Shown piece by piece: positions 51,436 to 54,836 of a stretch of DNA of 64,000 bases. The first letter of the stretch is position 1; each line of letters starts with the position of its first letter. The notes beneath the pieces are model-generated. The model did not search any database and was not told where the DNA came from. It saw only the letters and a program-made list of their open reading frames with translations. The position numbers were made by a program, and so were the translations under genes. Origin of the DNA: Traorella massiliensis (GTDB taxonomy: Bacteria; Bacillota_I; Bacilli_A; Erysipelotrichales; Erysipelotrichaceae); contig NZ_LT629967.1 in the NCBI RefSeq assembly GCF_900104665.1, positions 597,372-661,371 of the forward strand. Direction: 5' to 3'.

Positions 51436-52149
51436 ATGGCAAGAATTCATTCTTTTGAAAGCTTTGGAACAGTAGATGGACCGGGCGTGCGTTTTGTAAT
51501 CTTTATGCAAGGCTGTCCTTTACGATGTAAGTATTGTCATAATCCTGATACTTGGAATTTTCAGGGTGGAGAAGAATACAGTGTTGAAGAGGTTGTCAGT
51601 GAAATCATGAAATATAAAAACTATATTAAAGATGGTGGCGTAACTCTTAGTGGCGGAGAACCTTTAATGCAAATAGATTTTGCGATCGAATTATTTAAAG
51701 CTTTGAAAAAGAGAGGTATTCATACTTGTATGGATACAAGTGGTATTACATTTGATTGTCATGATACGTCTAAATTTGATCAGCTTTTAGAAGTGTGTGA
51801 TTTGTTTTTATTAGATATCAAGCATATTGATACTAAGAAGCATCTGGATCTGACTGGAGTGTCTGCAGATCGGCCGCAGGCTTTTGCCCGCTATCTCGAT
51901 GAAAGGAATAAACCGGTTTGGATCCGTCATGTATTGGTTAATGGTTATACCAATAATGAAGAAGATCTTATGAAAACAAGAGCTTTTCTTGATACATTGC
52001 ATAATGTAGAGAAGGTAGAAGTGCTTCCTTATCATACGATGGGTATCGTTAAATACGAAAAGATGGGGCTGGAATATCCGCTCAAGGGCGTAGAGGTATG
52101 TACAGCGCAAGAAATTGAAAGAGCAAAGGAGATATTGGGTGTATGCTGA
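51436..52149 (+). CDS. pflA: pyruvate formate-lyase-activating enzyme
   Basis: PflA is a radical-SAM enzyme that installs the glycyl radical on pyruvate formate-lyase. The 237 residues have FGTVDGPGVRFVIFMQGCPLRC, the 4Fe-4S motif CxxxCxxC in CPLRCKYCHN and the SAM-binding GGVTLSGGEPL. Length is normal for a short PflA. The thioredoxin-like gene overlaps its 3' end by seven bases, and pflB follows. Confidence 0.96.
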   Translation: MARIHSFESFGTVDGPGVRFVIFMQGCPLRCKYCHNPDTWNFQGGEEYSVEEVVSEIMKYKNYIKDGGVTLSGGEPLMQIDFAIELFKALKKRGIHTCMDTSGITFDCHDTSKFDQLLEVCDLFLLDIKHIDTKKHLDLTGVSADRPQAFARYLDERNKPVWIRHVLVNGYTNNEEDLMKTRAFLDTLHNVEKVEVLPYHTMGIVKYEKMGLEYPLKGVEVCTAQEIERAKEILGVC

Positions 52150-52469
52150 ATAATGAAAATTTCAAGGAAGTATTGGGACAAAGCAGATTTGCGGTAACGC
52201 TGATTAGCGGTGAAGGATGTGCAAATTGTGTCAGTATGCTTCCAATGGTTTTGAAATTGAAAGAACGTAATGATATGGATGTCTATATCGTTGAGGTCAG
52301 TCCTTCAAATTATGAGATCAATGAGCATTATGATATCAAAGTTGTACCAACGATTTTGCTTACAAGCTATGGCGAAGCAATATCAAAAATTACAGGTTAT
52401 CAGCCTGAAGAAATCTTTGAGCTTTACATTGAAGCGAAACTGGAAGAAACAGGAAAAAGAGCAAGTTAA
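52143..52469 (+). CDS. thioredoxin-like protein with CANC motif
   Basis: The 108-residue protein has a thioredoxin fold with the active-site-like GCANC near residues 25-29 and the cis-Pro region VVPTILL. It overlaps pflA by seven bases. A role in thiol or radical-enzyme maintenance for the Pfl system, or in oxygen response, is inferred from position only. Confidence 0.78.
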   Translation: MLNNENFKEVLGQSRFAVTLISGEGCANCVSMLPMVLKLKERNDMDVYIVEVSPSNYEINEHYDIKVVPTILLTSYGEAISKITGYQPEEIFELYIEAKLEETGKRAS

Positions 52470-52542: not shown

Positions 52543-54546
52543 ATGTATAAAGGCTGGGAAGGTTTTGAATTAGGTAAATGGAGCAAGGAAATCGATGTCC
52601 GTGACTTCATTCAAAAAAATTATACGCCTTATGAAGGTGATGATAGTTTCTTAGCACCTGCTACTGAAGCTACAAAAAAATTATGGGAACAGGTATCTGA
52701 ACTGAATCAAAAAGAAAGAGAAGCAGGGGGAGTACTGGATGCAGATACAAAGGTGGTTTCTTCACTGACATCACATGCTGCCGGTTATTTAAATAAAGAT
52801 TTAGAAAAGATCGTTGGTTTCCAGACTGACAAGCCATTTAAACGTTCACTGCAGCCATTTGGTGGTATCCGAATGAGTGAAAGTGCCTTAAAAGCTTATG
52901 GTTATGAGCTTGATCCGGAAATCAAGGAAATCTTTACAAAATATCGTAAAACACATAATCAAGGGGTTTTTGATGTTTATACGCCAGAAATGCGTCGTGC
53001 TAGAAGCTGTGCTATCCTGACAGGTCTTCCTGATGCATATGGACGTGGAAGAATTGTTGGCGATTATCGTCGTGTTGCTTTATATGGTGTTGATTTTCTA
53101 ATCAAAGATAAGGAAACACTTCACAAGGAAATCCTTTTAGGAAGCATGACTGAAGAGAGAATCCGTGAACGTGAAGAAGTAGCTGAGCAGATTCGTGCTT
53201 TATATGCCTTAAAGGAAATGGCACAAATCTATGGCTGTGATATTTCTGAACCAGCTGTAACAGCACAAGAAGCTGTGCAAGCTGTTTACTTTGGATATCT
53301 GGCGGCAGTGAAAGACCAGAATGGAGCAGCGATGTCTTTAGGACGTACTTCTACATTCCTTGATATCTATATTCAAAGAGATTTGGATAAGGGACTCATT
53401 ACTGAAGAAGAAGCCCAGGAATTGATCGATCATTTTGTTATGAAACTGCGTCTTGTGAAATTCATGAGAACACCAGAATACAATGAATTATTCTCTGGTG
53501 ATCCAACATGGGTAACAGAATCTATTGGTGGTATGGGACTTGATGGAAGAACATTAGTTACAAAGAATTCTTTCAGAATGCTTCATACGCTAGTAAACTT
53601 AGGACCGGCTCCTGAACCAAATTTAACAGTATTATGGTCTACAAGATTGCCAAAGAACTTCAAACGTTTCTGTGCAAAGATTTCTATTGAGACAAGCTCT
53701 ATTCAGTATGAAAATGATGATCTGATGCGTGTAGAGATGGGTGATGATTACTGTATCGCCTGCTGTGTATCCTGCATGAAAGTTGGAAAAGATATGCAGT
53801 TCTTTGGAGCTCGTGCAAATTTAGCAAAATGTCTGTTATATGCAATCAACGGTGGTATGGATGAAGTGAAGAAAATTCAGGTTTCACCAAGAATGGAACC
53901 AATTACTTCAGAATATTTAGATTATGATGAAGTTATGGCTAAATATAATCAGATGCTGGAATGGCTGGCTGGATTATATGTCAATACTTTGAATGTAATT
54001 CACTACATGCATGATAAATATTGTTATGAAGCTTTAGAAATGGCTTTACATGATCATGATGTAAGACGTTTCTTCGCAACAGGTGTAGCAGGACTTTCAG
54101 TAGCAGCAGATTCTCTTTCAGCAATCAAATATGCGAAAGTAAAAGCAATCCGTGATGAAGATGGAATTGCAATTGATTATGAAGTTGAAGGTGATTTCCC
54201 TAAATTCGGAAACAATGATGACCGTGTTGATCAGATCGCTGCAGATCTTGTAAAGAATTTCATGAATAAGATCAGAGAACACCGTACTTATCGTAATGGT
54301 GTACCTTCAATGAGTATTCTGACAATTACATCAAATGTTGTTTATGGAAAGAAAACAGGAAATACACCAGATGGAAGAAAAGCCGGAGAACCATTTGCAC
54401 CAGGTGCTAACCCAATGCATGGTAGAGATACACATGGTGCAGTAGCTTCACTGGAATCAGTAGCTAAGCTTCCATATGAATATTCAAGAGATGGTATTTC
54501 AAATACTTTCTCAATCGTGCCAAATGCTTTAGGAAAAGATGAATAA
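52543..54546 (+). CDS. pflB: pyruvate formate-lyase large part (without glycyl-radical loop)
   Basis: PflB converts pyruvate and CoA to formate and acetyl-CoA. The 667 residues carry the catalytic cysteine pair in IACCVSC (Cys407-Cys408) and match normal PflB up to [17 protein letters not shown], then stop at a TAA. The glycine-radical segment (last 75 residues of ordinary PflB) is encoded separately 14 bases downstream in another frame with its own ribosome site. Residues are otherwise well conserved, so this is a gene fission and not random decay. Ribosome site GAGAGG lies before the ATG. Confidence 0.94.
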
Positions 54547-54560
54547 CAGGAGGAAAGAAA

Positions 54561-54794
54561 ATGTCTGATAGAATTGATAACTTAGTAACGATGATCGATG
54601 GCTATGCTCAGAGTGGCGGACATCATTTAAATGTAAATGTATTCAATAGAGAAACATTGTTAGATGCTCAGGCTCATCCTGAAAAATATCCTCAATTAAC
54701 GATTCGTGTTAGTGGATATGCTGTTAATTTCAATAAACTTACAAAAGAGCAGCAGGATGATGTCATTCGCAGAACCATGCATGAGTCAATGTAA
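54561..54794 (+). CDS. free-standing glycyl-radical subunit of pyruvate formate-lyase
   Basis: The 77-residue protein matches the C-terminal end of Pfl[26 protein letters not shown] and the glycyl-radical motif RVSGYAVNF (Gly52). AGGAGG at 54549-54554 gives it an independent translation start. With the 667-residue protein it adds up to the 744-residue length of a normal PflB, so the two should assemble into the active enzyme. It resembles in size and motif the GrcA (YfiD) spare-part protein, but here the large gene has no radical loop of its own. Confidence 0.93.
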
Positions 54795-54805
54795 TTCTTA
54801 ACTTG

Positions 54806-54836
54806 AGATGACTGTGAGAAGCAGTCATCTTTTATT
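54806..54836 (+). terminator. terminator of the pfl genes
   Basis: AGATGACTG pairs with CAGTCATCT around a seven-base loop and is followed by a T-rich tail. Confidence 0.8.

Follow-up and report, generated by a model that had tools for sequence, protein, structure and literature searches.

In a 64,000-nucleotide stretch of Traorella massiliensis DNA (the window), pyruvate formate-lyase (PFL) is very probably encoded as a two-chain enzyme. A 667-residue body and a separate 77-residue radical chain are likely to assemble into active enzyme, and activation by PflA is predicted. We favour this reading because the break falls at a single site, the small gene has its own start and Shine-Dalgarno (SD) sequence, both halves are conserved, the two genes co-occur and no fused PFL was found. 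Central to anaerobic fermentation, PFL is vulnerable in air at its radical glycine. With a widespread split PFL found in nature, the long-standing question becomes directly testable whether exchange of a subunit is by itself enough to repair a glycyl radical enzyme, and whether this helps anaerobes to survive oxygen. The features of the locus are as follows.

51436..52149, + strand: pflA, PFL-activating radical-SAM enzyme, 237 aa (TIGR02493, 325.7 bits, cut-off 231.75)
52143..52469, + strand: thioredoxin-like protein, 108 aa, CANC motif (PF00085, 36.4 bits, cut-off 23.5)
52543..54546, + strand: PFL body, 667 aa, without the glycyl-radical end (TIGR01255, 1145.5 bits; PF02901, 736 bits)
53761..53766, + strand: codons of the catalytic pair Cys407-Cys408 (sequence)
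54548..54553, + strand: Shine-Dalgarno AGGAGG of the small gene (sequence)
54561..54794, + strand: separate glycyl-radical chain, 77 aa, GrcA3 family (NF038360, 160 bits, cut-off 158; TIGR01255)
54714..54716, + strand: codon of the radical glycine Gly52, in RVSGYAV (homology; aligned with the E. coli PFL end, 683-759)
54805..54831, + strand: terminator-like hairpin 3' of the small gene (consensus match)

The original prediction of a PFL divided into a body and a separate radical chain, the latter with its own AGGAGG and in a different frame, was borne out by the ORFs and by the TIGR01255 and Pfam matches. The body ORF ends with NALGKDE followed by TAA, and 14 nt separate its stop from the ATG of the small gene (54561), whose frame is offset by 2. 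Together, the two ORFs cover the 744 positions of TIGR01255 successively (2-663 in the body, 665-744 in the small ORF), and the Pfam Gly_radical domain is also divided between them (positions 1-48 and 52-106, respectively). The body alone passes the TIGR01255 cut-off (1145.5 vs 994.2 bits); the radical glycine is absent from it and is carried on the separate 77-aa chain. The Cys407-Cys408 pair in the body, the NALGKDE end, RVSGYAV in the second ORF and a thioredoxin-like gene inside the locus (PF00085, 52143-52469), all noted beforehand, were likewise found in the sequence. The Cys-Cys pair is invariant in 43 aligned rows and present in 119/119 full-length split bodies. A scan for consensus matches detected no terminator-like hairpin between body and small gene; the region holds two such hairpins against 1.6 in shuffles, the second and weaker one lying within the body.

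The thioredoxin-like ORF sits between pflA and the body, its start overlapping the pflA end, and scores below the NCBIfam thioredoxin cut-offs. Its role might be thiol care of PFL or PflA, which is a guess. The order pflA, thioredoxin-like gene, body, small gene occurs in 15 of the 53 split loci of the host's class described below.

Out-of-frame neighbours in one genome have the look of a frameshift error, and the two genes even share a frame in 17 of the 51 adjoining pairs of the class. A single full-length chain could on these grounds be present in the cell, the break being due to sequencing error, a pseudogene, programmed frameshifting or stop read-through. The distribution of frames argues against it, since relative frames 0, 1 and 2 of body and small gene are about equally represented (17/15/19 in the 51 class pairs and 22/23/27 in 72 named pairs) and the gaps between the genes range from -1 to 446 nt in both sets together. 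The small gene moreover has its own SD: a motif of 5 nt or more precedes 41 of 47 small-gene ATGs compared to 2.8% of 433 internal ATGs, in a control without nine small genes where the motif was not located. Because the three frames are used about equally and 100 and 470 kb separate body and small gene in two of the genomes, error, frameshift and read-through were excluded; programmed frameshifting and read-through, tried as candidates, were rejected on the spread over all three frames. The break recurs in 53 genomes of the class and in each of the three possible frame relations. This recurrence rules out chance or error and speaks against the frames being joined on resequencing, a case envisaged with the original prediction.

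The same-genus genome G381 has a gap 2 nt longer than that of the window, so that the frame relation differs, and both ORFs are open. Codon differences between the two genomes are 218 synonymous and 9 non-synonymous in the body, and 16 synonymous and none non-synonymous in the small gene. Judged from these counts, both ORFs are under strong purifying selection, which also speaks against the single full-length chain. We regard the latter as scarcely credible.

To what extent is the two-chain arrangement shared? A split body, defined as one that ends, or encounters a stop, near TIGR01255 model position 663-674, was found in 53 of 395 genomes of the class, and the same 53 carry a free radical chain (frame of 77-113 aa). 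The split, whose conservation in relatives the original prediction proposed to check, thus recurs in this class. Among the 138 class genomes over the TIGR01255 cut-off, the other 85 have a fused PFL1. No fused PFL1 was present among the matches listed for the 53 split genomes, for which up to two candidates per genome were scored once and nearly all in another search, listed to about E 2e-20. The counts of 53 here, and of 37, 23 and 8 below, were tallied by eye from match rows.

Body and small gene adjoin in 51 of the 53 genomes. In the remaining two, G134 and G393, the body lies about 100 kb and about 470 kb, respectively, from the small gene (L085/L086 and L090/L091), which is found beside pflA. 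These two genomes probably use code 4 (mycoplasma-like), given their in-frame TGA codons. Among the best 80 relatives in named genomes, the chain is free in 79 and beside a body in 72, the sole fused case being Enterococcus casseliflavus. Named carriers of the split include Ruminococcus bicirculans 80/3 (complete), [Clostridium] citroniae, an Enterocloster, Lancefieldella rimae ATCC 49626, Olsenella uli An733 and Collinsella sp. An2. The named-locus and class sets share some genomes (e.g. L171/G085, L202/G384 and L225/G298).

In the Coriobacteriia, 45 of 149 genomes pass the cut-off, with 8 fused and 37 split PFLs, and a free chain accompanies the split body in 37/37. Ten of these split Coriobacteriia have both genes in one frame, with a stop between the genes in 10/10. 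In the Clostridia, the free chain occurs in at least 23 of 391 genomes, all 23 having an adjoining split body, and split and fused PFL are found together in at least three (G776, G671 and G401/Lachnoclostridium sp. An118); counts of fused PFLs beside split ones and of weaker free chains are lower bounds in this class. Present in the host's class, in Clostridia and in Coriobacteriia, the split therefore spans Bacillota and Actinomycetota. At two further loci, L125 (G010) and L126 (G024), PFL is interrupted elsewhere, around model positions 600 and 572, and the ORFs overlap; a different kind of split, pseudogenes or frameshift errors could account for these breaks.

Trees of the bodies were used to weigh several independent splits against a single one. 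FastTree (161 bodies) and IQ-TREE (81 bodies) each need 4 split/fused label changes; in the latter, split and fused bodies fall in blocks and at least two changes are forced by starred branches. A single clade of all 48 split rows was not rejected by the AU test (p 0.352, 80 rows, in an alignment that left out the very long branch L134). A single origin of the split is possible. Three fused PFLs, L292 (G995), L293 (G747) and L294 (G743), have radical ends that score near free chains on the GrcA3 model and, as judged by these scores, may be re-fusions.

The host genome (2.6 Mb in 9 contigs, 99.24% complete) has a single PFL-type body. An intact pflB elsewhere in the genome had been put forward as the case to look for; the body protein and the models PF01228, PF02901 and TIGR01255 were used as queries and revealed no fused or full-length PFL, so the radical loop would be available only in trans. 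The remaining glycyl-radical matches, L003, L005 and L037, each have the radical end in the same chain. We take L003 and L005 to be nrdD-like genes beside nrdG-like genes, and L037 to be a yjjI-like gene (502 aa) with an activase-like neighbour. The genome also includes a pyruvate:ferredoxin oxidoreductase (PFOR), which means that the cell need not depend on PFL.

Compared to E. coli PflB (PDB 1h16 and 2pfl; TIGR01255), the body aligns to residues 10-678 and the small chain to 683-759. The Cys-Cys pair and RVSGYAV are kept and pflA adjoins, but where E. coli has a single chain there are here two genes, cut between E. coli residues 678 and 683. Like the free radical domain YfiD/GrcA of E. coli (PDB 6owr; TIGR04365), the small chain stands alone, and its residues 18-77 match YfiD 68-127. 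YfiD repairs full-length PFL after O2 cleavage, according to passages of PMC8683613. The systems differ in that a full-length partner was not found in the host genome by the searches above, and in that the first 17 residues of the small chain, helical in the structure model, have no YfiD counterpart.

This similarity over residues 18-77, the NCBI name GrcA3 and the fused PFL alongside in three Clostridia genomes would fit a classic GrcA spare part, a small protein that repairs an oxygen-cleaved full-length PFL, the short body being incidental. Against this, fused PFL is missing both from the host genome as searched and from the matches listed for the 53 split class genomes. In addition, the small chain includes a stretch before the YfiD-like part which is exactly the missing piece of the body, and it falls short of the GrcA equivalog cut-off of TIGR04365 (100 vs 170 bits). 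We consider the spare-part explanation clearly improbable. By score the window's chain is a member of GrcA3 (NF038360, 160 vs 158 bits); this cut-off is passed by only 19 of 395 class genomes, although 53 carry a free chain. The name of the family, by which alone we judge it here, implies a spare part, whereas the present data favour a truncated PFL of which the chain is an obligate subunit.

NCBIfam already calls the small family 'autonomous glycyl radical cofactor GrcA3', and some proteins bear that name. In open-access literature, most subscription journals and bioRxiv being outside the search, no description of a split or two-chain PFL was found; the open-access search returned no papers for 'GrcA3' and nothing useful on formate phenotypes. 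Passages of a mycoplasma genome paper mention PFL plus an 'autonomous glycyl radical cofactor', read as a replacement part (PMC5476646). Two recent PDB entries named 'Formate acetyltransferase', 38la and 38lb, have chains which stop at this split point or immediately beyond it, and 38lb has a tail like that of Lancefieldella rimae. The small-chain sequence had no match in these entries at E up to 10, and neither was among the rows of our fold search (library to 8 April 2026), whose matches were fused PFLs and other glycyl radical enzymes. The two PDB entries suggest that such proteins are under study elsewhere. Sequence comparison shows the split to be real and widespread and gives good support to the two-chain reading; the small family has been named already, and for the two-chain arrangement we found no description. 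If true, the reading of this large family would shift from repair part to obligate enzyme subunit (at least 7999 candidate proteins were scored). Radical biochemistry would also gain an enzyme that is already split, as would efforts to make fermentation more oxygen-robust.

How could the two chains work together? The small chain would dock via its N-terminal helix, which is lacking in E. coli YfiD, and via the last barrel strand, placing Gly52 next to Cys408. The neighbouring PflA would generate the radical on the small chain. Cleavage by O2 would be confined to this chain, which could be swapped for a fresh copy, with no need to remake the body. The structure model was built as one read-through chain from an alignment that included fused PFLs and so provides no test of binding. 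Several observations count against the two-chain reading. According to passages of PMC8683613, E. coli PFL cut at 695 showed no measurable YfiD binding and 32-fold less activation. Three Clostridia also have a fused PFL, the host has PFOR, NCBI names the small family as a spare-part-type cofactor, and O. uli An733 carries other glycyl radical enzymes.

With PFOR present, pyruvate has another route, and a two-chain glycyl radical enzyme might mainly use a different substrate, e.g. another 2-oxo acid. The body nevertheless passes the PFL1 equivalog cut-off (1145 vs 994) and pflA is adjacent, so that we judge a substrate other than pyruvate very improbable.

Many split bodies continue beyond the LGK motif, with a tail of more than 20 aa in 42 of 125 (e.g. 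L070, L100, L194, L210 and L216). Of these 42, 25 have at least two Cys, frequently ahead of IPN(L). The C-terminal tail may serve for docking or have a redox function.

The original prediction also held that a separate chain would let the cell cheaply replace an oxygen-cleaved radical domain. We infer some support for this from nine solitary extra small genes: one each in G243, G1062, G1063, G1064, G1057, G185 and G298, and two in Erysipelotrichaceae MTC7. Not counted among the nine are L259, which adjoins a body fragment, G1019, where two copies sit at the beginning of contigs, L221, which is close to the end of its contig and has its body on a different one, and the single chains that lie far off in G134 and G393. 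Some of the solitary loci span only a short length (L124 3.5 kb, L262 4.7 kb, L263 4.5 kb). Rubrerythrin is encoded nearby in three of the nine (L173, L266 and L268), two of these also having a FUR-family regulator and one suf-type genes. The gene order in G243 is small gene, FUR-family regulator, rubrerythrin. On MTC7 contig 1 it is small gene, LRR/MucBP protein, FUR-family regulator and rubrerythrin (2.5 kb off), and in G1062 class-V aminotransferase, NifU-like, SufB-type, rubrerythrin, small gene. The remaining six copies adjoin unrelated genes. No rubrerythrin was found near the body-paired class loci (0/53); the difference from 3/9 gives a Fisher p of 0.0022, in a small sample with a pattern noticed before testing and with two of the three rubrerythrin-linked loci coming from one family.

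These neighbourhoods are a hint, not proof, that the radical chain is a replaceable part produced on demand after oxygen exposure. A broader proposal is that the chain acts as a disposable radical cartridge: a separately made, consumable subunit spread over two phyla and swapped after oxygen cleavage with the costly body kept, of which some lineages would have extra copies under oxygen-stress control, next to suf genes, rubrerythrin or a FUR-family regulator. We give this proposal slightly less than an even chance. PerR boxes, sought in the three rubrerythrin loci with a consensus, gave no match with fewer than three mismatches and none that stood out: L173 has 5 matches vs 7.1 expected, L266 2 vs 1.7, and L268 16 vs 10.2, a number reached in 11 of 200 shuffles. 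The PerR search thus lends no support. At L259 (G1064), the further small gene is preceded by a fragment matching body residues 315-429, either a duplication remnant or an assembly artefact.
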